This document shows positions 8,412-26,509 of a stretch of DNA of 26,818 nucleotides, in pieces. The translations under genes were made by a program, and so were the position numbers. The notes beneath the pieces were generated by a model that did not search any database, was not told the DNA's origin, and was given only the letters and a program-made list of their open reading frames with translations. The DNA comes from a virus: IMG/VR virus record IMGVR_UViG_3300042478_000817, positions 1-26,818 of that record, one strand, 5' to 3'. Position 1 is the stretch's first letter. The number at the start of each line of letters is the position of its first letter.

Positions 8412-8584
8412 TGAATCTTAATATTGAATACTTGAAAGGTCTTCTCGCAGCGCGAAAAGACCTGCTGCGCCGTGAAACGCAGCAGATGATCGTTGACAAA
8501 CTCACGCCCTTGGATACAATAAGGGCTAACGAGAACGAGATGGTTCTCATTGACACACAGACCAAATCATTGGAGAGACTATGA
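8411..8584 (+). CDS. 57-residue coiled-coil-like protein coupled to uvsX
   Basis: A complete 57-codon frame starts at ATG 8411, overlapping the previous stop (TGATG), and ends at TGA 8582-8584, overlapping the uvsX ATG at 8581 (ATGA). It begins MNLNIEYLKGLLAARKDLLR and is charged and leucine-rich with helical character throughout. Exact coupling at both ends and the absence of any other use for these 170 bases support a real gene. Function unknown. A small partner of UvsX or the replication complex is only suggested by position. Confidence 0.65.
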   Translation: MNLNIEYLKGLLAARKDLLRRETQQMIVDKLTPLDTIRANENEMVLIDTQTKSLERL

Positions 8585-9687
8585 AACTGAAGGACATTCT
8601 GAAGGCAGCAGGAAACAAGTACGCAACCGTGGCATCAGATGGGCTTGAGGGCAGCGATGTCAAGGGTTTCATCTCCACGGGATCGTATTCGTTCAACGCG
8701 CTTCTAAGCGGTTCCATCCACGGTGGGATTCCCGACAACAAGATTGTGGCTCTTGCAGGAGAGCAAGCCACGGGCAAGACCTACTTTGCCCTGAATGTGG
8801 TGCGGGAGTTCCTAAATTCCGATCCGAAGGCAATGGTGTTGTATTTTGATACGGAACAAGCCATTACCTCTGATCTGCTCCGTGGACGGGGCATTGACAC
8901 CGACCGCGTGGCTGTGCTGCCTGTTGCCACGGTGGAGGAGTTCCGTCACCAGTGCGTCCTGTCTGTGGACAAGTATCTTGAAGAGGACAAGGACACTCGC
9001 CCCCGCATGATGATCGTGCTTGACTCCCTTGGAATGTTGTCCACCGAGAAGGAAATGAACGACACCGCAGAGGGCAAGACCACCCGCGACATGACTCGCG
9101 CACAGGTCACGAAGGCGGCATTCCGCGTCCTGACCATCAAGTTGGGTCACGCACGGATTCCCCTGTTGATGACGAACCACACCTACGATGTGGTGGGTGC
9201 GTATGTGCCCACGAAGGAAATGGGCGGCGGAAGCGGTCTGAAGTATGCTGCGTCCACCATCATCTATCTGTCCAAGAAGAAGGACAAGGTGGACAACGAG
9301 GTGGTGGGCAACATTATCCACTGCAAGACCTACAAGAGCCGTCTAACGAAGCAGGACAAGATGGTGGATGTTCAGTTGAACTTTGAGACAGGGCTGAACA
9401 AGTATTACGGGCTGTTGGACATTGCCATCAAGTACGGTATTTTCCAAAAGGTGTCCACGAAGATTCAGTTGCCCAACGGAAAGACCGTGTTTGAATCGCA
9501 GATCAACAAGAATCCAGAGAAGTACTACAACGAAGATATCCTTCGGGCTATTGACATTGTTGCGAAGAAGGAGTTCTGCTACGGCAAGGACGAAGCAGAA
9601 AAGGCAATGGATCGTCTGGCTGAACTTGATGAGGAACTTGGACTAAATGAGCCAAACCGAAAAGACAATACTGGCGGGGCTGCTTAA
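8581..9687 (+). CDS. uvsX: UvsX, RecA-like recombinase
   Basis: The 368-residue strand-exchange ATPase forms filaments on single-stranded DNA for recombination-dependent replication and repair. Walker A is GEQATGKT (60-67), the catalytic-type glutamate follows YFDTEQ (Glu92), and Walker B is MMIVLDSLGML (Asp148). A DNA-binding loop region follows TNHTYDVVGAYVPTKEMGGG. T4 UvsX is 391 residues, so length fits. It is coupled to the 57-residue gene upstream, and its last 41 bases overlap the helicase gene in another frame. Confidence 0.95.
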   Translation: MKLKDILKAAGNKYATVASDGLEGSDVKGFISTGSYSFNALLSGSIHGGIPDNKIVALAGEQATGKTYFALNVVREFLNSDPKAMVLYFDTEQAITSDLLRGRGIDTDRVAVLPVATVEEFRHQCVLSVDKYLEEDKDTRPRMMIVLDSLGMLSTEKEMNDTAEGKTTRDMTRAQVTKAAFRVLTIKLGHARIPLLMTNHTYDVVGAYVPTKEMGGGSGLKYAASTIIYLSKKKDKVDNEVVGNIIHCKTYKSRLTKQDKMVDVQLNFETGLNKYYGLLDIAIKYGIFQKVSTKIQLPNGKTVFESQINKNPEKYYNEDILRAIDIVAKKEFCYGKDEAEKAMDRLAELDEELGLNEPNRKDNTGGAA

Positions 9688-13009: not shown

Positions 13010-14578
13010 ATGAACAGACCTCGCAAGTCATCCAAGCCCACAGAGCCACGCCGAACTGCTGCCATTTCAACTGGTCAGTTCGTGTCGGGTTCGCTTTTTC
13101 GTTTAGTGCGCGAAATCCGTGGTTCCGCGTACTCTGTGGGCGATCAATTCATGCTTCTGGATGAAGCAGACTGCCACGATCCCGATATTCTGAAACTTGG
13201 AGGAACAGGGGAAACATTTTTTATTGATCCCAATGGTCGCCCCCTGAAAATAGAGGCAGGAAACAAACAGATTGACTCTATATTTGAGATGGTTAGCAGT
13301 TCCGAAGATGTTCTGCAAAATCTTGTAACACCACAACCCGATCCTGAAAAGCCAGTCACTGAAAAGGAATTGACCAAACTCACAGAAGAGTTGCGCCAAT
13401 CAATTCAAGAAATAAAGGACACGCCGTCTGTTTCTGGTCCAAAGGGAGATCGTGGAGAACCTGGTGGGGTAAAGGGACCAAAAGGTGACCGAGGAATCGC
13501 TGGTCCTCGTGGAAAAATGGGTGAGCGTGGACCGCGTGGCTTGAAGGGAGAGCCTGGTCCTCGCGGCAAGGCAGGAGTACCTGGCAAGCGTGGACCAGAA
13601 GGCAAGCAGGGACCAAAAGGACCAAAGGGAGATCGCGGAGAGCGTGGCGAACGCGGTGCAGATGGCGAGTCTGGAATACTGTCCGCAAAGTTTCCACTCG
13701 TATATGACAAAAACACCAAAACGGTGTCGATGGATGAGGCTCGTCTTGATTCCATCTTGAAGCGAATACTCGGCGGCAAAACAGTATCAGCGGCTGACAT
13801 GGGTTGGCTTGCGTCCACTGGCGGCGGAGGAAAGGTTGCTGTCCTCTGGAACGGAACCGCTATCACTCCCGATGTGCGGTCCTTGAACTTCAAGGGGTCT
13901 GCCATACAGTCGGTCACCAAGCGTGGTGGAGTAGTCACGATAAATGTAGTGGCTCCTCCACAAGGAGTCACGGACATCAATGCTGGTGCTGGTATAAGTG
14001 TTTCTGGTTCAACTGGATCGGTTACCGTATCAAACACTGGTGTTCGTGAAATTGTTGCAGGCACAAACATATCCGTATCTGCTTCTTCTGGATCGGTCAC
14101 CATAAACTCAACTGCAATTAATGAAGTTGGCAGCAAGTTTTTCTATCGTGAAACTGCTCCAACTACAGGAATCACCGCAGGCGACCGGTGGATGGACTCT
14201 GAAAACGGTCAAGAATACATCTACATTGATGACGGCAACAGCCAGCAGTGGGTTCAGCCGAGCATTCCTAGCACCATCAGCGCAACAATCAACACCGTTG
14301 TGGGTGTTGAGCAGTCTGCTTATTTTGCCACCCAACTAGACTACTACATTGGGGTGAACTACGCAGGCAAGGTCACTATTACCCTGCCAGACTCACCAGA
14401 AGAGGGTCGTGAAATAATAGTAAAGGACGAGTCTGGCAACGCTGGTAAGGGACCAAACAGAGCCATCACAATCATAGGCTCTGACGGACAAACCATAGAT
14501 AATAAGCCATCAGTAGTGGTAAACCTAGACAATGCAGCCCTACACTTGATCTATAGAAACGGTTGGAGAATCGTATGA
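13010..14578 (+). CDS. Collagen-like tail fiber / virion structural protein
   Basis: A 522-residue protein with an N-terminal region of about 110 residues (probably virion attachment), a short charged helix (118-137) that may trimerise the chain, a collagen-like G-x-y stretch (143-224), and a beta-rich C-terminal half. The latter holds two 25-residue units of the type GISVSGSTGSVTV (13976-14125) and ends in a domain with KVTITLPDSPEEGREIIVKD. Phage collagen-like segments form trimeric fiber shafts. No Shine-Dalgarno precedes ATG 13010; GTG 13082 and ATG 13151 are alternatives. The stop overlaps the next gene as ATGA. Exact role unproved. Confidence 0.8.
   Translation: MNRPRKSSKPTEPRRTAAISTGQFVSGSLFRLVREIRGSAYSVGDQFMLLDEADCHDPDILKLGGTGETFFIDPNGRPLKIEAGNKQIDSIFEMVSSSEDVLQNLVTPQPDPEKPVTEKELTKLTEELRQSIQEIKDTPSVSGPKGDRGEPGGVKGPKGDRGIAGPRGKMGERGPRGLKGEPGPRGKAGVPGKRGPEGKQGPKGPKGDRGERGERGADGESGILSAKFPLVYDKNTKTVSMDEARLDSILKRILGGKTVSAADMGWLASTGGGGKVAVLWNGTAITPDVRSLNFKGSAIQSVTKRGGVVTINVVAPPQGVTDINAGAGISVSGSTGSVTVSNTGVREIVAGTNISVSASSGSVTINSTAINEVGSKFFYRETAPTTGITAGDRWMDSENGQEYIYIDDGNSQQWVQPSIPSTISATINTVVGVEQSAYFATQLDYYIGVNYAGKVTITLPDSPEEGREIIVKDESGNAGKGPNRAITIIGSDGQTIDNKPSVVVNLDNAALHLIYRNGWRIV
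13436..13672 (+). repeat. Collagen-like G-x-y repeat region
   Basis: Four G-x-y triplets, a one-residue interruption (an extra Lys after GGV), then 22 further uninterrupted triplets and a terminal GIL. Proline, lysine, arginine and glutamate dominate x and y (GPK, GDR, GER, GPR), a charge-stabilised pattern usual in bacterial and phage collagens, which lack hydroxyproline. Confidence 0.9.
13976..14125 (+). repeat. Two 75-bp units encoding 25-residue beta repeats
   Basis: Two successive 25-codon units (13976-14050 and 14051-14125) encode the pattern aGtgISVSa-sGSVTv-n-gv. The same pattern recurs three times in the giant fiber at 24256-24480, so the two fiber proteins share a building block. 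Confidence 0.65.
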
Positions 14579-16237: not shown

Positions 16238-17872
16238 ATGGCAATCATTAGGATTAAGCGCACAACCGGCAGTAGTCTACCAACAGGCTTGACCTTTGGT
16301 GAGATGGCTTTCGTGCAGGGAAGCGGAAGAACCGCAAATCGTCTGTATATTGCAAACAACGCTGGAGTGTGTGTTTGGGTGGGAGCGCAGATAATCAATC
16401 AACCCACTTTCTGGAGCGGTGATGATGCTCAAACCACCGTTCCCACACTTTCTGCGGTTGAGAGTCGTGTTGTTGCTGGTGGTGGTTTAACTTTTGCTAC
16501 CGATCTTGGTGTAAATATTGCAACAGGTAAGTGGTTTGGAAAATATACTCGCGGAGACACCATTCCAGCACAGGGACAAACCGTAAAATGGGTCATCGAA
16601 GACGCTCTGAGTGAACGCATTAATCCAAATACATCACTCACAACAAACTATGCGTCTATTGGTGGAATTTCTTTTGGTCAAACATCGGGAACAGTAACAC
16701 TAACATTAGGATACACTATTCTTACTGCCGGATCTAGTGCTGCTGGAACAACTTTGGAATACAGATGGGGAAATGTGGGAGCGTATACGGTGCTTAGTTC
16801 GGCACTGAAGAATGATGCTCTTGGAACAAACCAAGCATATTCAAACACATTTAACCACACATTCAACCGATTGGTAGACACTGTTTCTGGTGGAAGATGG
16901 GCTGGACACGGTGGTGTTGGGGCAACAGCCCTAAACTACCGATGGACGGTGAGTGACAGAGCAGGGGCATCAGCGGAATCACAATTTACTATTACTCCAG
17001 GAAATTCAACAAATATTGCTCCATCTTTTCAGTGGAACTCTCTATCAGCACCAAGTTTGAGAACAGGAGTTTTTGGCAGTACTGGAGCAGGCGGAGGCGC
17101 AACCGAAACAGAACTGAACCGCGAAAAGGGAAACACTTTTGTCAGCAATATCTCCTTTACAGTCAACAGAGCAAATCAATATATTCCATTGACTGGTTAT
17201 ATTCTTTCAGTGAGAAGATTTTTCAACGGAGCGTATGATTCATACACAGGCATAACAAGCGGCGTTCTACCCAATCCTGCCACAAGCACTATTTCTGGAC
17301 TCACCTACCGAGCACCAACAACAGGTGCTTCACTTGATAGGCTAGAATTCCAAGCACAAATTACCGATGACTATTGGGATTCGGTCTTATCTGGGTCACC
17401 AGTTACTACAACATACACGGTTCCTACTACTCGTGTAATAAACTTCAACTACATGATGTTCTATGGTGCCACAACAAATCAGCCACTAAACGGAACCATG
17501 ATTCGAGGACTATCTTCAGGATTGGTGATTGCACCAGATCCGTCAGTTGGTCCTCCTTATGGAGAAGGCGGAAACAATTCAGCAAGCGGTACGGTTTCCA
17601 ACCCACTGAACGGAATAATTGGTCCTGCTGGAGCAAACACATATTTTATATGTGCTGTTCCCGATGGACTGTCTGCAACATTCTTCGATCAAGGTCTACA
17701 ACAAGTAGTAAACTTTAGTTTTGGTGGAGAACCAAACACTACTATTGTGGCAGTTCCTGATGCAAGCGGTGTAAACAAGAATTACAATGTTTATATTCAG
17801 AATGCTGCGGTTCCTTTTGGAGATGCTAGACACTGGAATGTAACAACCACCGGAACGGTCACACAACCGTAA
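16238..17872 (+). CDS. Tail fiber / virion protein with attachment-type N-terminus
   Basis: A 544-residue protein with a strong GGAGGAG ribosome site at about 16220-16226. Its first 50 residues (IRIKRTTGSSLPTGLTFGEM, then LYIANNAG and VWVGAQI) match the N-terminal module also seen in the proteins starting at 20452 and 26568, similar to the N-terminal domain of phage tropism determinants, and probably attach to a shared baseplate or fiber partner. The rest is beta-rich, with YRW repeats near residues 175-235 (LEYRWGNVG, LNYRWTVSDRAG) suggesting Ig-like domains. It is more AT-rich than the replication genes. Receptor unknown. Confidence 0.7.
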   Translation: MAIIRIKRTTGSSLPTGLTFGEMAFVQGSGRTANRLYIANNAGVCVWVGAQIINQPTFWSGDDAQTTVPTLSAVESRVVAGGGLTFATDLGVNIATGKWFGKYTRGDTIPAQGQTVKWVIEDALSERINPNTSLTTNYASIGGISFGQTSGTVTLTLGYTILTAGSSAAGTTLEYRWGNVGAYTVLSSALKNDALGTNQAYSNTFNHTFNRLVDTVSGGRWAGHGGVGATALNYRWTVSDRAGASAESQFTITPGNSTNIAPSFQWNSLSAPSLRTGVFGSTGAGGGATETELNREKGNTFVSNISFTVNRANQYIPLTGYILSVRRFFNGAYDSYTGITSGVLPNPATSTISGLTYRAPTTGASLDRLEFQAQITDDYWDSVLSGSPVTTTYTVPTTRVINFNYMMFYGATTNQPLNGTMIRGLSSGLVIAPDPSVGPPYGEGGNNSASGTVSNPLNGIIGPAGANTYFICAVPDGLSATFFDQGLQQVVNFSFGGEPNTTIVAVPDASGVNKNYNVYIQNAAVPFGDARHWNVTTTGTVTQP

Positions 17873-17878
17873 TAACAA

Positions 17879-20188
17879 ATGCCCATTCACGAATACACAC
17901 CCGGAATTAAAATTCCTCAGCCATACGAACCGGTAAATCCGGTTCCAGTTGATGCGTGGTCTGGTCCGTATTCAGCATCAAATGGAACCACTGGCGAGGC
18001 TATAAATAATGCTCTAGCAACTATTCCGCCAGCACTCCGCTTTCTGTCTATGGAAGTGCGGATTTTGGCTAGAACTGGTCCTGGTGGTAGTACACTAGCG
18101 TACAAATACTGGTTCCGTGGAAGCACAGGAACTCTTGAAGAATTTGCATCCGGAACATCAACAAGCAGCAGTGGAGATTTCCCAGGAGGAATATCGGCTT
18201 CTGGTGCAACTTTTACTAACCTATTTGTTTTTGGTGGTACAACCCTCAACGGCAATGTTTCTGTTGGTGATGCGGCTACCGATGTCCTCACAGTCACATC
18301 AGGTGCAACTTTTGCAGGCAGAGTTGATGTTGGTGGTGTCCTTGATGTTGTGGGAACAGCAATATTTGAAGGTGCTGCGAATTTCAATGGTAATGTTGTT
18401 CTCGGAAACGCAAGCACCGATACAGTCACAGCAAACTCAGTATTCAATGGTCTGACTGTAAGCGGATCTGCTGCTAGATTTGTTTCTGGCATATCTGCTG
18501 CATCACAAACCTCTGTTGAAAGTTTGACTGTTGGATCTGGAGCAATATTTTCTAGCACGGTAACCGCTGGTCCAACATCAGTAAATCCTCCGCAAGGAGT
18601 AACATACACATACAGCAATATTCCTGCTGGTACTTCTGTTGGTCAGAATATTGGATTCAGTGTTCTAAACAATGTTGCTCTCAATGCGAATGTGCTAATC
18701 GGTCCAAGCGGAGGAGTGCTGGCAGGCGGAACGCAGGGAGTAATGTATGTTCGCGTGGGAACCACATTTGAACGGGCAGTTGATTTTGCAGGAGCAGTTC
18801 GTGCCGCTACATTCACTGGCAACTTGGGAGGAACAGCAGACAATGCCACAACCTTGGCAAATGTCGCCGCATCAAATTATGCACGAAGAGACAGCGCAAA
18901 TACTTTCACTGGTCTACAAACCCTGAATACAGGACTGAATGTCACATCTGGCGGTGCCACATTTGCATCAACTGTTGCGGTCACTGGTCTTGGCACATTT
19001 AGCGGTGGACTGTCTGCCGCTGGTACTGTTACGGTAAATGGTGGTGCTACATTCAGCAGCATCAGCGCATTTGGAACTCTTGGTGGAGTAACATATCCAC
19101 TAGCAAATATTCCTGCTGGCACATCTCTCGGTCAGGGAATTTCCTTTACTGTTCTACAGAATGCCGCTTTCAATGGAAATGTGCTCATTGGTCCAAGCGG
19201 AGGACAGATTGTAGGAGGAACGACTCAAGGCGTGATGTATGTTCGTGTGGGAACCACATTTGAGAAGGCAGTTGATTTTGCAGGTGCTGTTCGTGGAAAT
19301 GTCACGGGAAATGTCACGGGAAATGTCACGGGAAATGTCACAGGAACCGCAGCAAATGCGTCTTCTTTGGGAAATACGGCTGCAAGTGGATGGGCACAAC
19401 TTGGAGCATCAAACACCTTCACGGGTTCTGCGAACAACTTCAACAACGATGTTACCATAGGCAAGACTCTTACTGTCAATGGAAACTTCTATGTCTCGGG
19501 AACTGTTACGACCGTAAATAGAACGGTACTAGATGTTGATGATATCCAATTGAGGCTTGGAGCCACCACAGGCACGATGACTGATGTATTGGCAAATGAT
19601 GGTGGTATCATCCTAAAAGGAGCAACAGATAAGAAGTTTACATGGATTAATGACACTGATTCATGGACCAGCAATGAAAACATAGACCTTACCACAACTG
19701 CTTATGCTTATAAGATTGCTGGTACAAATGTTCTCACAAGCAGCACGCTTGGAAGCGGAATCACCACATCAAGTCTGCAAGCAGTAGGCACTATCGGCAC
19801 TGGTGTGTGGCAGGGAACCGTCATAGGAATGGCATACGGTGGTGTTGGTGGAAACATCAATTCTCTTCCAAACAATGGAGTTATTTACAAGACAGCCAGC
19901 GGTCTTACTGCAACCGCTACTGGTACAAATGGACAAATTCTGTTTGCCGGTGCCGCAGGACTTCCTGCATTTGCTTCTCCCACCGGACTCACCGTAGGAA
20001 CGGCAAACAAGGTTAAAGTTCAAAACAGAAACACCACTGCTGGAACAATGTTCCTTACTTTTGTGGCTGATGCAAGTGATGCAGAAGACCTGTGGATAGA
20101 CAAGGCTTCTGGAATAACATTTGATGCCAGTACAAATGTTTTGAGTTGCACTCAAATTGAAGCGACAATAGACGGCGGAACATGGTGA
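17879..20188 (+). CDS. Large modular tail fiber protein
   Basis: A 769-residue, low-complexity beta-rich fiber. After an N-terminal domain of about 95 residues come many short units of the form Gg-tlnGnVsvGd-atDvLTVtsgatF. Two longer paralogous segments follow, each holding NIPAGTS-GQ...VLIGPSGG...GVMYVRVGTTFE. The C-terminal third (DIQLRLGATTGTMTDVLAND, then GTIGTGVWQGTVI) is of the kind seen in T4-like phage fibers. It ends TIDGGTW. No Shine-Dalgarno is visible before ATG 17879, six bases after the previous stop, so translation may depend on coupling. Trimeric fiber shaft and tip roles are inferred. Confidence 0.8.
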   Translation: MPIHEYTPGIKIPQPYEPVNPVPVDAWSGPYSASNGTTGEAINNALATIPPALRFLSMEVRILARTGPGGSTLAYKYWFRGSTGTLEEFASGTSTSSSGDFPGGISASGATFTNLFVFGGTTLNGNVSVGDAATDVLTVTSGATFAGRVDVGGVLDVVGTAIFEGAANFNGNVVLGNASTDTVTANSVFNGLTVSGSAARFVSGISAASQTSVESLTVGSGAIFSSTVTAGPTSVNPPQGVTYTYSNIPAGTSVGQNIGFSVLNNVALNANVLIGPSGGVLAGGTQGVMYVRVGTTFERAVDFAGAVRAATFTGNLGGTADNATTLANVAASNYARRDSANTFTGLQTLNTGLNVTSGGATFASTVAVTGLGTFSGGLSAAGTVTVNGGATFSSISAFGTLGGVTYPLANIPAGTSLGQGISFTVLQNAAFNGNVLIGPSGGQIVGGTTQGVMYVRVGTTFEKAVDFAGAVRGNVTGNVTGNVTGNVTGTAANASSLGNTAASGWAQLGASNTFTGSANNFNNDVTIGKTLTVNGNFYVSGTVTTVNRTVLDVDDIQLRLGATTGTMTDVLANDGGIILKGATDKKFTWINDTDSWTSNENIDLTTTAYAYKIAGTNVLTSSTLGSGITTSSLQAVGTIGTGVWQGTVIGMAYGGVGGNINSLPNNGVIYKTASGLTATATGTNGQILFAGAAGLPAFASPTGLTVGTANKVKVQNRNTTAGTMFLTFVADASDAEDLWIDKASGITFDASTNVLSCTQIEATIDGGTW
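18596..18802 (+). repeat. Intragenic duplication, copy 1
   Basis: Encodes GVTYTYSNIPAGTSVGQ through VDFAGAVR. It is paralogous to 19085-19294 in the same frame, 489 bases downstream. Both DNA and protein are clearly similar, with copy 2 carrying one extra threonine codon. Confidence 0.8.
19085..19294 (+). repeat. Intragenic duplication, copy 2
   Basis: Encodes GVTYPLANIPAGTSLGQ through VDFAGAVR, matching copy 1 at 18596-18802 with scattered substitutions. It runs directly into the 12-bp tandem repeat at 19295. Confidence 0.8.
19295..19342 (+). repeat. Four tandem 12-bp repeats (GNVT)
   Basis: GGAAATGTCACG is repeated four times (19295-19306, 19307-19318, 19319-19330, and 19331-19342 with a final A), encoding four consecutive Gly-Asn-Val-Thr units inside the fiber. 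Perfect short units in frame are typical slippage or recombination sites. Confidence 0.95.
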
Positions 20189-20451: not shown

Positions 20452-23400
20452 ATGGCAAAGATCAAGATCAGATACAGCATGGCGGCAGGAGCAACGGCAC
20501 CCGTAGGGCTGACTGCCGGGGAGTTGGCTGTCAACATCACACAAAGACGGATGTTTGTCGGAGACACTGCCGGAAACACCATTGAACTTGCTGGTCTGTC
20601 TGCGAACAATTTCACCGGTTTGAACTCCTTTGCCGCAGGAATCTCCGCCGCTGGTGGTGTGACCTTTGCAGGTAGTCTGTCGGGAACCACTGCCACATTC
20701 AGCCGAGTATTGACTGCTCCATCCATAGCATTCAATTCCCCGTCTGCAACAATCAGTGGATTCAGTGCGTCTGGTGCATATCCAAAAGCAATATTTGATG
20801 GAAACTGGTTTCAGTTTCAAGTTATTGCTGGTCCTTGGGCATTGGGATTGCAGGAAGAAAATTCATTAGGCTATCCATACGATACAAGTATAATAGCAAA
20901 TCCAAATACTGGTATCATAAGCATTGAAGCCCAAACCATATTTTCTAATGCATCCCAATTTACTTTGTTGGGAGGAATTTCAGCAGGAGATTCAAGCACA
21001 TTCAATGGGGCATTGACTGGTACCACTGCCTCATTCTCCCGTCTGCTCACAGCCACACAGGGAATCTCTGCCGCTGGCGCAACATTCAGCGGAAGCGTAA
21101 CAGCACCCACACCCAGTCCAGGAACAAACAATACTCAGGTGGCAACCACTGCATTCGTGCAGACTGCTGTTAGCAGCGGCAGCAGCACCAATGTGGTCAC
21201 TTCTTTCAATGGCAGAACTGGTGCGGTGCAAGGTGTCTCTGCTGCGGTGGCTGGCAGCGGAATTTCAGTGTCTCCTTCTGGTGGAACGGGCACAGTCACT
21301 ATTGCAAGTGTGGGAGTGGGTGACACTGGCGCTGTTCAGTTCCGCCATTCCGGTGGTTTGTGTGGAAGTGCCATGCAAATTTCTGGAAGAGTTGGTGGAG
21401 TAACACTAGACTCACAGACAGAAATTCTTCAGTTTGGATTGAATAGAGGACCACAAAAAGATAAAGGAAATGCCGAAGCCATTGGTTTAAGAATTATTCG
21501 TGGTTACGGTGCATCTCCAAGTTCTTACATCGATCCATACACCGGATCAGGGGGACTAGGAGATGAACTGGGTGGAATAGGACTACTTGCCACCGGAGAG
21601 GGAAGTATTTCTGGAGATCCAGGTGAGGACGACGCAGAAGTTTCAAATTTGTATATTATGACAAAACCTGCTGGTATTAATAGTGAATTTGGAAGTTCTA
21701 TTCAATTGCGACCGGGTGGACAGCCAGGTATATTAGTTCGCACTGCTAATGGAAACGGTGATCCTTATTCAGCACAAATATATCCTCCTCTTTTTGTTAA
21801 CAATACTCTTAATGGCACAACCGCTGCATTCTCTCGTCTGGTAACAGCCAGTGCAGGAATCTCTGCTGCCGGTGGTGTAACCCTTGCAGGATCTTTGTCA
21901 GGAACCACTGCTGCATTTTCCCGCCTAGTCACTTTCAGTCAAGGAATCTCTGCTGCCGGTGGTGTCACTCTAGCGGGATCTTTGTCAGGAACCACTGCTG
22001 CATTCTCTCGTCTGGTGACAACCGAACAAGGAATCTCTGCTGCCGGTGGTGTCACTCTAGCGGGATCTTTGTCAGGAACCACCGCTGCATTCTCTCGTCT
22101 AGTGACAACCGAACAAGGAATCTCTGCTGCCGGTGGTGTCACTCTGGCAGGAAATCTATCAGGAACCACTGCTGCATTTTCCCGCCTAGTCACTTTCAGT
22201 CAAGGAATCTCTGCTGCCGGTGGTGTCACTCTAGCGGGATCTTTGTCAGGAACCACTGCTGCATTTTCCCGCCTAGTCACTTTCAGTCAAGGAATCTCTG
22301 CTGCCGGTGGTGTCACTCTAGCGGGATCTTTGTCAGGAACCACTGCTGCATTCTCTCGTCTGGTGACTTTCAATCAGGGAATATCCGCTGCAAACGGCGT
22401 AACTCTGCACAATGCAAGTCTAACTGGAATACCAACAGCACCAACTGCAAATGTTGGCACCAACACCACACAGATAGCAACCACTGCGTTTGTGTTGGCA
22501 AACAGCAGTTCTACGAATGTGGTGAAGTCTGTCAATGGTCGGACTGGTGATATATTCATCTCTGATGGACAGGGAATATCGTTTGTAAACAGGGCGGGAG
22601 ATGATTGGGAAATCCTTCCAAGAATAGACTACTTGTATACAACTGGTCTTGGTGAATTGGTTGCATCGCAAGAACCCTATAGGGGAATTACATTTGCAAT
22701 TTATGAAGATTTCCTTGTAGCAAGTGGTCCATCATTCATTCCATCCAACGATTATATTCTAATCAAATCCGCAGTTACCAGAAATGGAGATGTAGAATAT
22801 CCCAGTCAGATGTATCTTACAACGCTAGAGCATCTTAAATTATGGATCAACGGTGCAGGAATGGATCCAGGATTTGTAGAGGATGAAGCACTTTTTGTAA
22901 ATGGAATCACAGTTGGTGGAACTGCTGCCTTCCAAAAACAGGCAACTTTCAATGCACTGACACAATTCAACGCAGGAATCTCTGCATCAGGCGGCATGAC
23001 GCTTGACGGCGGCAAGGTGTGGCACTCCCTGAATGACGGACCCACCTCGGGATTGGACGCAGGGCAACTGTACGGTGTCACCGCATCCCTTTACGCTTCA
23101 AGCCTGTCCACGGGTCTGCTGTACGGTGGACTAGTCACTATCAACGCAGGCAACAGTGCTGCGTTTGATGTAAGCGCAGGCGCAGGCTACATTGTCACCA
23201 CGGGAGCCACCTTCACCGCAGAACCGAATCCCGTGATTACCCGTGTCTCATGGACTGCAAAAACAGGTGTCACTCTTTCGGGACTCACGGCACAAGACAC
23301 CACATGGATATACTTTGACAGCAGCGGCAACCTGAATCAGCAGCCCGCGTTCTTCACGGACGATCAGGTGCAAAGCACCCTTGCGGTTGGCGCACTGGTT

Positions 23401-25941
23401 CACCCAAGCCGTGCGTACATTTCGCTTGCCAAGACCATTCCCAATGTGTCGTATGCCACAGACAAGCAGTACGAGCAGTTTATCCGTGCGTTTGGTCCGC
23501 TCAAGGTGAGTGGTCACAGCATTCAAGCCAATGGCGCAAACCTGAAACTGAACCGCACAAGCGGAACAGCGTTCATCTTGGGGCGCAACTACCCCAACGA
23601 TCCCAACAACCCAAGCGTGATATCGGACAACGCACAGACAGACTGCACATTTTGGCGGTACTACCGTGGTGCAACCGCAGGTTCGTTTGTCACGGTACTG
23701 AATCAGACCGCTATTGATCCCGAAAACTACGATGACGGCACGGGAACCCTGAATAGCGTACCCTCAAACAAGCCGTTCACCATTCAGCGACTGTTCTTCT
23801 TCCCAGGCACACCCTCGGTGCTTGGCGTGTACTACGGACACGCGTCCTACGCCAGCATTTCCGAAGCAGCCAACAATGTCAATTTTGAAGACTTCACGGA
23901 AATCACGAACACCGCAACCAATGCAGTGTTTGCGGGCTATCTGCTTGTAAAGAAGGGCACAACGAATCTCACCACAGCCATTGCTGCGGATGATGCACGC
24001 ATTATTCAGTCGGGGCAGTTCCGCTCTACCACAAGCGGTGGCGGAACCATTGCCACGAACTTGGACTCGCTGAACGATGTCACTATTTCATCGGTGCAGG
24101 ACGATGACCTACTCATCTACGATACCGCTACAAGCCAGTGGTTGAACACGCCCCTACAGCACATTGGTGTGACACGGGTGAACGGACTCTCTGGCGCAGT
24201 TCAGGCAGTGTCGTCTTTCAACGGGCGCACTGGTGCAGTTCAAGGTGTCTCTGCTGCTGTCGCTGGTGATGGCATCACCGTATCAGGTGCTACTGGTGCG
24301 GTCACCATCACCAATGCGGGTGTGACCCGAGCAGTTGCTGGTACTGGTATCAGCGTAAACGCAAATACTGGCACTGTAACCATCACCAACAGCGGTGTCA
24401 CTAGCCTTGCGGCAGGAACTGGTGTTGCCGTAAGTGCAGGAACTGGTGCAGTTACCGTTACCAATATCGGAGTTCGGTCATTCAACGGAGCCACTGGTGC
24501 GGTCACAGGCGCGTCGCTCGGTGCGAACACATTCAATGGCTTGCAGACCATCAGTAGTGGTGGACTGTTTGTAAACGGTGGAGGAACCACATTTGGTGCA
24601 TCACAGGGAGTGGTGTTTGAATACGGATTGCGGCAGACCAGAGTGCTTTCCAACATAGACAATGCTGGAGGCTTGATCGTGGATCGCGGAACCACTCTTG
24701 GATCTGTGGGCGGCGCTCCACTCACTGTTCGTGGTGGACCGATGAGACTCCTGCAAAACGGCGGATTCAATATAACCACCGGAAATACATCTGGAGTAAG
24801 CACTAGTGATTGCCCTCTTACTGTTACTTCAGCGGGAAATTTTACTCTCAACATAAGTCCAATGATGTCAACTGGACTTGGCACTTATCCAAACCTACTG
24901 GTTTTGGCTGGAAACGGAGTGGCTGACGGGGGGATCAACATCAGTGGATCTGATCTCATTCTCGGGACAAAATCTGCTGATGGAGAAGATTACACACCGG
25001 TCGGTTTGAAATTCACTGGAACCTCTTTTCCGATTCGTTACACCACACTAACCGCTAATCCATCAGGCAGCGACAAGACCATCACCCTTCCAAATGCCAC
25101 AGGAACGGTTGCACTTGATGCCGCAGCAAACACATTCACAGCACTCCAGTCATTCACACAGGGAATATCTGCTGCTGGTGGTGTGACTTTTGCAAGCAAT
25201 CTTGCTGTGAATGGTGGCAGCATTACCACATCTGCCGCAACAGGAAATCTGTTCAACACCGTTGCCACTACCCTGAACATTGGCGGAGTAGCAACCACCA
25301 CGAATCTAGCAACCGTCGCATCAGGACTGACACTGAACATTGCAACTGGAGCAAACGGTTCTGATATCAAGAACATCTACATTGGAACTGGTCCTGTTGG
25401 CGGAGGCTCTGCACGAACAACCATAGGATACAACGGCGGTGTCATTGTTTCCCACGGCAACGGAATCACTCTCAGTAGCAGCGCAGGTGGATATGTTGTA
25501 AATATTCCGTCTGCCACCACAAACATCACGGGAACTCTCAACGCCAGCGGTTCTCTGAACTCCACGGGACTGTTTACAACAAGCGGAGGACTGTCTGCAA
25601 GCGGTGGAGTCACATTCAACACACCAATCGTGTCCACCCGAATGGCACGAACATCTTCGGGTGTGTTTGACACCAGAACTGGAAGTTTCAGCCCCACCGA
25701 AGCAGACAACGGCAAGATTTTTGTCATCAACATCAGCGGAAAAACCTCTATCACAGTAACATTGGAAGGGCTTTCCACTGGTTGGAGAGCAAAGTTCCTG
25801 TGCCTTGGCGGAGCAACCAGTTTCAGCAGCACCACAGGAAATGTTTTTGGATCATTCGGAGCAAACGGAAGCGGGTTCCAATCATCAACAGAGTGTGTGG
25901 AAGTCCACTGCTACGCAAGCAACACATACCATGCATCATAA
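20452..25941 (+). CDS. Giant repeat-rich tail fiber protein (1829 residues)
   Basis: The largest gene in the window and probably a major host-recognition fiber. Residues 1-50 carry the shared attachment-type module (IKIRYSMAAGATAPVGLTAG, then MFVGDTAGNTIELAG). Then come ISAAGGVT/SGTTAAFSRL-type units, six as perfect-length 29-residue tandem repeats. Two GTNxTQxATTAFV segments (about residues 222 and 664) and SVNGRTG/SFNGRTGAVQ motifs also appear. Residues about 845-1240 form a GC-richer conserved domain (IRAFGPLKVSGHSI, LGRNYPNDPNNPS), followed by three 25-residue beta repeats. The end (DNGKIFVINISGKTSITVTL, LSTGWRAKFL) resembles a fiber tip domain. AT-rich cassettes interrupt the repeats. 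No Shine-Dalgarno precedes the ATG. Confidence 0.85.
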   Translation: MAKIKIRYSMAAGATAPVGLTAGELAVNITQRRMFVGDTAGNTIELAGLSANNFTGLNSFAAGISAAGGVTFAGSLSGTTATFSRVLTAPSIAFNSPSATISGFSASGAYPKAIFDGNWFQFQVIAGPWALGLQEENSLGYPYDTSIIANPNTGIISIEAQTIFSNASQFTLLGGISAGDSSTFNGALTGTTASFSRLLTATQGISAAGATFSGSVTAPTPSPGTNNTQVATTAFVQTAVSSGSSTNVVTSFNGRTGAVQGVSAAVAGSGISVSPSGGTGTVTIASVGVGDTGAVQFRHSGGLCGSAMQISGRVGGVTLDSQTEILQFGLNRGPQKDKGNAEAIGLRIIRGYGASPSSYIDPYTGSGGLGDELGGIGLLATGEGSISGDPGEDDAEVSNLYIMTKPAGINSEFGSSIQLRPGGQPGILVRTANGNGDPYSAQIYPPLFVNNTLNGTTAAFSRLVTASAGISAAGGVTLAGSLSGTTAAFSRLVTFSQGISAAGGVTLAGSLSGTTAAFSRLVTTEQGISAAGGVTLAGSLSGTTAAFSRLVTTEQGISAAGGVTLAGNLSGTTAAFSRLVTFSQGISAAGGVTLAGSLSGTTAAFSRLVTFSQGISAAGGVTLAGSLSGTTAAFSRLVTFNQGISAANGVTLHNASLTGIPTAPTANVGTNTTQIATTAFVLANSSSTNVVKSVNGRTGDIFISDGQGISFVNRAGDDWEILPRIDYLYTTGLGELVASQEPYRGITFAIYEDFLVASGPSFIPSNDYILIKSAVTRNGDVEYPSQMYLTTLEHLKLWINGAGMDPGFVEDEALFVNGITVGGTAAFQKQATFNALTQFNAGISASGGMTLDGGKVWHSLNDGPTSGLDAGQLYGVTASLYASSLSTGLLYGGLVTINAGNSAAFDVSAGAGYIVTTGATFTAEPNPVITRVSWTAKTGVTLSGLTAQDTTWIYFDSSGNLNQQPAFFTDDQVQSTLAVGALVHPSRAYISLAKTIPNVSYATDKQYEQFIRAFGPLKVSGHSIQANGANLKLNRTSGTAFILGRNYPNDPNNPSVISDNAQTDCTFWRYYRGATAGSFVTVLNQTAIDPENYDDGTGTLNSVPSNKPFTIQRLFFFPGTPSVLGVYYGHASYASISEAANNVNFEDFTEITNTATNAVFAGYLLVKKGTTNLTTAIAADDARIIQSGQFRSTTSGGGTIATNLDSLNDVTISSVQDDDLLIYDTATSQWLNTPLQHIGVTRVNGLSGAVQAVSSFNGRTGAVQGVSAAVAGDGITVSGATGAVTITNAGVTRAVAGTGISVNANTGTVTITNSGVTSLAAGTGVAVSAGTGAVTVTNIGVRSFNGATGAVTGASLGANTFNGLQTISSGGLFVNGGGTTFGASQGVVFEYGLRQTRVLSNIDNAGGLIVDRGTTLGSVGGAPLTVRGGPMRLLQNGGFNITTGNTSGVSTSDCPLTVTSAGNFTLNISPMMSTGLGTYPNLLVLAGNGVADGGINISGSDLILGTKSADGEDYTPVGLKFTGTSFPIRYTTLTANPSGSDKTITLPNATGTVALDAAANTFTALQSFTQGISAAGGVTFASNLAVNGGSITTSAATGNLFNTVATTLNIGGVATTTNLATVASGLTLNIATGANGSDIKNIYIGTGPVGGGSARTTIGYNGGVIVSHGNGITLSSSAGGYVVNIPSATTNITGTLNASGSLNSTGLFTTSGGLSASGGVTFNTPIVSTRMARTSSGVFDTRTGSFSPTEADNGKIFVINISGKTSITVTLEGLSTGWRAKFLCLGGATSFSSTTGNVFGSFGANGSGFQSSTECVEVHCYASNTYHAS
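21856..22377 (+). repeat. Six tandem 87-bp repeats in the giant fiber
   Basis: Six in-frame copies of an 87-bp unit (29 residues) start at 21856, 21943, 22030, 22117, 22204 and 22291. Each begins GISAAGGVTLAG, continues through a SLSGTTAAF segment (NLSGTTAAF in copy 4) and ends SRLVT plus FSQ, TEQ or FNQ. A degenerate seventh start lies at 22378 (GISAANGVTLHN). DNA identity is near complete, with variants shared between non-adjacent copies. Related single units occur at about 20637 and 25157. Confidence 0.97.
24256..24480 (+). repeat. Three 75-bp units encoding 25-residue beta repeats
   Basis: Units at 24256-24330, 24331-24405 and 24406-24480 each encode aaGtGi-VsanTGaVTiTN-GV. They are diverged at DNA level and related to the two units at 13976-14125 in the collagen-like protein. 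They probably fold as a beta-prism or beta-helix shaft. Confidence 0.8.
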
Positions 25942-26509
25942 TCCGAATTCTTATCTGCTGTCTACCATATACAGAACACCAAAATCAAATGGATACGGGC
26001 GAGAGTGTGCCTATCGGCGTTTTTCGTTTCTCCGAGGGCTTTCTTTCGGATCAGTGCTTGATGTGGGGTCTGGTCCGTGTCTGCTGCGGGGATGGTTGCA
26101 GGAAAACGGGATAACTGCGGACTACGAAGCGATTGACATCCGCGCAGACGCACTTGCCTTGTGCGACTGCCCCACATACCAATCCGTACCGCAGCAAAAG
26201 GCGTATGATCTTGTGTGTTTGTTTGGAACCGTGACTTACAACATAGACCACGATGAAGCACGGAACAAAGAAGTGCTGCGCGACCTACTGCGGCAGTCAA
26301 TTAGGGTGTGTCGAAAGTGGTTGGTGTTCACCGTGTTTAGGGAGAGCATCAGAAAAAAATACGAAAACAGCGTCCCACGGGACTTCTTTGTGCATTTCAG
26401 CCGCGAAGAGATCGGGGAAATGCTTGAGGGATTGGGCATATATCGGTTTGGAATAGTGGAAGATGACCGCTTGGACGATCAGGAATACTTTGTTCTGTGC
26501 CAACCGTAA
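25931..26509 (+). CDS. SAM-dependent methyltransferase (class I) between fiber genes
   Basis: A 192-residue protein with a class I methyltransferase core: motif I VLDVGSGPCLL (about residues 41-51), an acidic motif II residue in YEAIDIRADAL, and a motif IV-like strand YDLVCLFGTVTYN. There is no DNA-methyltransferase PPY motif, so the substrate is more likely a protein, small molecule or glycan than DNA. I start it at ATG 25931, overlapping the giant fiber by 11 bases; the frame stays open upstream only within that gene. No clear ribosome site is seen, so coupling to the fiber is likely. Position suggests fiber or surface modification, which is inference. Confidence 0.8.
   Translation: MHHNPNSYLLSTIYRTPKSNGYGRECAYRRFSFLRGLSFGSVLDVGSGPCLLRGWLQENGITADYEAIDIRADALALCDCPTYQSVPQQKAYDLVCLFGTVTYNIDHDEARNKEVLRDLLRQSIRVCRKWLVFTVFRESIRKKYENSVPRDFFVHFSREEIGEMLEGLGIYRFGIVEDDRLDDQEYFVLCQP

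Follow-up and report, generated by a model that had tools for sequence, protein, structure and literature searches.

The 26,818-nucleotide stretch of viral DNA analysed here (IMG/VR virus record IMGVR_UViG_3300042478_000817, positions 1 to 26,818; hereafter the window) encodes a giant predicted fibre protein that contains a tandem array of 29-residue units, and this locus raises the question of how such an array arose and whether its make-up changes among related phages. An earlier note on this DNA had described six 87-bp in-frame repeats at 21856-22377. That description was exact in count, length and frame: six units of 87 bp (29 codons) lie within the first half of an 1829-aa ORF (20452-25941, + strand), all in frame with it and without a stop or indel, and share the consensus GISAAGGVTLAG(S/N)LSGTTAAFSRLVTxxQ. 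The six-unit array is real, since Tandem Repeats Finder reported a period of 87 with 6.5 copies (score 802) and a pattern of three GISA motifs spaced 87 bp apart gave 5 matches versus 0 in 100 dinucleotide shuffles. Degenerate edge copies and dispersed single copies of the unit, absent from the earlier list, are also present. The features of the locus are given below, where L009 and L031 denote related virus records.

8581-9687 (+): UvsX-like recombinase gene, the candidate recombinase (phrog_97, E 6.3e-83)
20452-25941 (+): predicted fibre ORF, 1829 aa, modular, with GISA-type units, APTxxxGTNxTQxATTAFV linkers, FNGRTG domains and a 280-aa segment common to annotated phage tail fibre/tailspike proteins
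20638-20724 (+): dispersed single unit GISAAGGVTFAGSLSGTTATFSRVLTAPS, 64-68% DNA identity to the array units
20974-21060 (+): dispersed single unit GISAGDSSTFNGALTGTTASFSRLLTATQ
21808-21855 (+): degenerate left edge copy, LNGTTAAFSRLVTASA part of the unit
21856-21942 (+): unit 1, type-A end FSQ; carries the left-half alleles GTA ACC CTT GCA, as does the single unit of a later L009 fibre-like gene
21943-22029 (+): unit 2, type-B end TEQ
22030-22116 (+): unit 3, type-B end TEQ; separated from unit 2 by 2 synonymous changes
22117-22203 (+): unit 4, type-A end FSQ; carries AAT CTA (S to N), as does the single unit of the later L009 fibre-like gene
22204-22290 (+): unit 5, hybrid, type-A end FSQ with a left half as in units 2 and 6
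22291-22377 (+): unit 6, hybrid, type-B codons for FSRLV, then FNQ
22378-22407 (+): degenerate right edge copy GISAANGVTL, then APTANVGTNTTQIATTAFV linker
22477-22985 (+): right flank of the array; L031 counterpart 96.9% identical, with another array just upstream

The 1829-aa ORF is predicted, on modest similarity, to be a phage fibre protein. It matched phrog_7032 (tail fiber protein, E 5.5e-6), and its residues 895-1174 showed 28-33% identity to proteins annotated as tail fiber or tailspike (E down to 2e-27), including 33% to the tail fiber protein of Stenotrophomonas phage DLP6. A Pfam search of the whole protein returned no match, and the array is not collagen-like, with no Gly-X-Y repeat and with PF01391 absent from the 1829-aa protein. 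A match to the anti-repressor phrog_35956 (residues 480-500, E 9e-4) was short and weak and was set aside. The array region was modelled twice with AlphaFold as a single chain, and both models were all-beta with a strand pattern recurring approximately every 29 residues (mean pLDDT 63.2 and 68.7, pTM 0.69). Foldseek searches with these models found nothing in PDB or BFVD at E<=0.001, and for this reason no fold family is claimed for the array. The earlier proposal that copy number would set shaft length can be called plausible only, because the models are of middling confidence and lack a match to a solved fold.

By its gene content the window genome is T4-like, since it encodes UvsX (62% to Methylophilales phage Melnitz), a gp43-like polymerase (49% to P-SSM7) and a DnaB-type helicase; the UvsX gene to which the earlier note had appealed is thus present at 8581-9687. 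The window holds several other ORFs of note. A collagen-like fibre ORF lies at 13010-14578 (Pfam Collagen E 8e-14), and collagen-like or GNTGNTG arrays are recurrent in many relatives. A second in-frame tandem array of 12 bp x 4.3 (GNVT x4) occupies 19295-19346 in the ORF at 17879-20188; its L031 counterpart has two units only (GNLTGNVT at L031:8506). A tblastn search of 50,697 phage records found no match to the 544-aa ORF at 16238-17872, for which PHROG gave a short N-terminal phrog_15769 match only; on visual inspection its N-terminus looks similar to the giant-fibre N-terminus. The 234-aa ORF at 25805-26506 had no PHROG match, was present among viral contigs in L009 and L031 only, and by eye is a putative methyltransferase (VLDVGSGPCLL).

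Comparison of the units codon by codon gave a more divided picture than the near-perfect DNA identity claimed in the earlier note, which was overstated: unit pairs are 80.5-97.7% identical (mean 88.5%) and carry 2 to 17 differences per 87 bp (mean 10), mostly synonymous, with amino-acid changes confined to the junction tripeptide and one S/N. The tripeptides themselves (FSQ, TEQ, TEQ, FSQ, FSQ, FNQ) had been read correctly and, as had been stated, are common to non-adjacent copies (FSQ in units 1, 4 and 5). The DNA differences fall in blocks. The left 60 bp of the unit are identical in units 2, 5 and 6 and 98% identical in unit 3, and the right 27 bp are of type A in units 1, 4 and 5 (mutually identical), of type B in units 2 and 3, and mixed in unit 6, so that the order along the array is A B B A A hybrid. 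The two 27-bp end types differ synonymously at 6/6 codons. Units 2 and 5 differ synonymously at 6/6 FSRLVT codons and at 0/20 preceding codons, a clustering with a chance of 4.3e-6 if six differences fell evenly over 26 codons; this figure is a guide and not a test, as the FSRLVT block was picked post hoc from the data. The block pattern persists when the array is read in a shifted phase, and three identical 87-bp units appear in one shifted phase only (21916-22002, 22177-22263 and 22264-22350). The array contains exact repeats of 131, 107 and 107 bp, at offsets of 348, 87 and 261 bp, respectively.

Strict four-gamete tests were positive for 5/66 pairs, all via one site, and are weakly informative; the claim of mosaicism is therefore based on the clustering of synonymous changes. 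Read in this manner, the array is a mosaic from recombination between units and not the product of one fresh duplication burst. Crossing over or conversion between misaligned units would be the simplest reading. Units 1 and 4 carry distinct alleles that are both present in one more dispersed single unit, found in the later fibre-like gene of L009 (ORF from 17456), and exchange with this paralogous unit has perhaps also occurred. In the case of the earlier suggestion of recent expansion or gene conversion, exchange between copies is supported by the block mosaicism, whereas simple recent expansion is not, as the unit types have diverged completely at the synonymous sites of one half-unit.

The relatives of the window are throughout assembled metagenome contigs, in which repeats can be mis-assembled. 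The separate IMG/VR record L009 matched the window over 16,367 bp without a mismatch, six units included, and an exact 23-base stretch of the unit was found in no virus record other than L009. Copy-number variation was not seen in the window's own population, where this sole other record has six copies too. L031 is 95.6% identical to the window over 3.3 kb including replication genes and 96.9% identical over 509 bp just right of the array. At that site it is without the 29-aa array and carries instead approximately 4 copies of a 51-bp unit, GISASGATFNGMIGAYR (L031:10968-11176), in which synonymous differences are likewise arranged as a block mosaic; the L031 fibre ORF spans 2119 codons from stop to stop and includes further long repeats. 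A scan for the 51-bp motif located 17-aa GISA arrays in L067, L068, L069 and L074 besides L031, and by inspection the 29-aa unit may be read as the 17-aa unit type of other phages (GISAAGGTFSALTRFTA) plus 12 residues. The 87-bp triple-motif scan yielded, beyond L009, a single genuine GISA array, in L057; L059 is an identical piece of L057, and the remaining matches of the scan were unrelated sequences. A scan with the gene downstream of the fibre again returned L009 and L031 only. The array had no match among 50,697 phage records at the DNA level and none among PDB sequences at the protein level, the window fibre had no confirmed relative among genome contigs, and a literature search on the 29-aa repeat found no paper.

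A difference in module number was observed between two further contigs, from a related phage group, that match the window fibre (63% in the best segment). L011 and L012 differ by 9 mismatches over 15,088 aligned bp and by a single 531-bp in-frame indel, which sits in a fibre-like ORF of 772 versus 949 codons that has an SFNGRTGAVQ domain, as does the window fibre. The indel length corresponds exactly to three modules (177+168+186 bp), giving 5 versus 8 modules, and the direct repeats on either side of the indel have an exact core of 50 bp. The L011/L012 module is a different repeat from the window's, GSGYTGINISNGYLWISPV with a GNTG or GPTG linker. Simple assembly collapse appears less likely as the cause of the 531-bp difference, because the modules absent from the shorter array are not identical to those kept. 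On the evidence of these contigs, fibres of this kind differ in nature in both the type of array and the number of modules. The earlier note had suggested that copy number may vary between virions or strains; array type differs between relatives (L031) and module number differs between near-identical related contigs. The constant copy number in all relatives that the note had named as contrary evidence was not found. A separate pair of contigs, L062 and L070, is 99.98% identical over 4.4 kb and has a Pro/Thr-rich ORF of 1167 versus 1085 codons with the repeats GITAVAPQPPTTRPDSG and ETPKPVTP; the length difference falls in the repeat region.

We regard it as probable that the array belongs to a modular stretch of the fibre gene in which homologous recombination among misaligned copies of the repeat keeps altering the number and type of units. 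The six in-frame copies, the block-wise mosaic, the other array at the L031 site and the three-module L011/L012 difference all argue for this reading. Also counted in its favour were the exact repeats within the array, the alleles that units 1 and 4 have in common with the L009 unit, the recurrence of in-frame arrays in collagen-like or fibre genes of many relatives, the presence of a UvsX gene and the all-beta, regularly repeating strand pattern of both models. Counted against it were the identical L009 with its six copies, the metagenome origin of the assemblies, the fact that the L011/L012 modules are another repeat, and the mean pLDDT of 63-69 and lack of a significant fold match of the models. 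Under the proposed mechanism, the array would be a modular stretch of beta-rich units in a phage fibre protein, and misaligned copies would recombine by unequal crossing over, gene conversion or deletion between direct repeats, and paralogous units in other parts of the fibre genes may occasionally take part in the exchange. The agent may be the UvsX pathway of the phage and not slippage or annealing. The units would build a rod-like segment, so that copy number would alter fibre reach or presentation, and host adsorption may select among the variants.

The explanation that comes closest to this one, with which it overlaps in all but pathway, is a shift in copy number by replication slippage or recombinase-independent single-strand annealing, with UvsX dispensable; we consider it possible but rather doubtful. 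Exact repeats of 107-131 bp that are adjacent or close suit both processes, as does the L011/L012 change, which lies between direct repeats that have an exact 50-bp core. Conversion or crossing over is a better fit to hybrid units broken inside units and to alleles held in common with a unit of another gene, but neither observation is decisive. The same block pattern largely refutes a recent single-burst tandem duplication, in which one unit was amplified and its copies differ by few new mutations. The three 87-bp units identical in one phase and the mere 2 bases that separate units 2 and 3 are what such a burst would leave; end types that differ at every one of six synonymous codons are unlike scattered new mutations, however, and the unit types alternate along the array, making a burst unlikely.

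The copy number might also be an assembly artefact of short reads across the repeat, as these are metagenome contigs with exact repeats of up to 131 bp. The longest exact repeat is nevertheless shorter than a typical 150-base read (the samples' own read length may differ), and two records with different ends match base for base over 16,367 bp, so that an artefact is very unlikely. Finally, the array might be ancient and functionally fixed, a rod of set length whose units are kept alike by protein selection alone. Amino-acid changes restricted to the tripeptide and one S/N, among differences that are mostly synonymous, would be consistent with such a rod. Protein selection does not explain a 60-bp half that is DNA-identical in units 2, 5 and 6, and a close relative, L031, is without the array; this reading is disfavoured and hardly credible.

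Changes of this kind in phage fibres have precedents. Domain duplications in the T4 gp37 adhesin were described by Tetart et al. 1996 (pmid 8637004), as cited in PMC2248197 and PMC9603124. As in the window, these involve a small fibre-protein domain duplicated in frame in a T4-type phage; in gp37, however, the duplications lie in the adhesin and expanded host range, whereas the window array has another unit sequence and lies in the first half of an 1829-aa protein. In the account given in PMC2248197, tail-fibre domain duplications occur in the Xanthomonas oryzae phages OP1, Xp10 and Xop411 (Inoue et al. 2006), where the N-terminal part of the fibre has the domain orders 1-2-3, 1-2-2-2-3 and 1-2-3-3-3, short repeats are the suspected mediators, and the duplications accompany changes in host range. 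Here too domain copy number differs among related phages, but the phage group and the repeat are others, and the link to host range belongs to the Xanthomonas phages. Collagen-like repeats likewise form in-frame arrays in virion fibre genes, in contrast to which the 29-aa unit has no Gly-X-Y and no Pfam family match. Two marks of the T4 gp37 and OP1 kind of fibre domain duplication were found in the present material, namely a domain duplicated in frame and an array type or copy number that differs between close relatives. Domain copy-number change in fibre genes is thus already known, and the window is a new example of it in uncultured T4-like phages.

A wider reading, to which we give only an outside chance, is that GISA arrays serve uncultured T4-like phages as a contingency-type locus, at which repeat-mediated recombination and exchange among paralogous units of the several fibre genes of each genome would keep fibres of differing length and unit type persistently mixed within each population. 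If true, this would amount to a length-based tracking of hosts. The locus offers a sequence-level example of what may be fibre remodelling via repeat recombination in uncultured T4-like phages, and L011 and L012 represent near-identical contigs that differ almost solely by three fibre modules. Whether fibres of more than one length coexist in wild phage populations thereby becomes a directly testable question.
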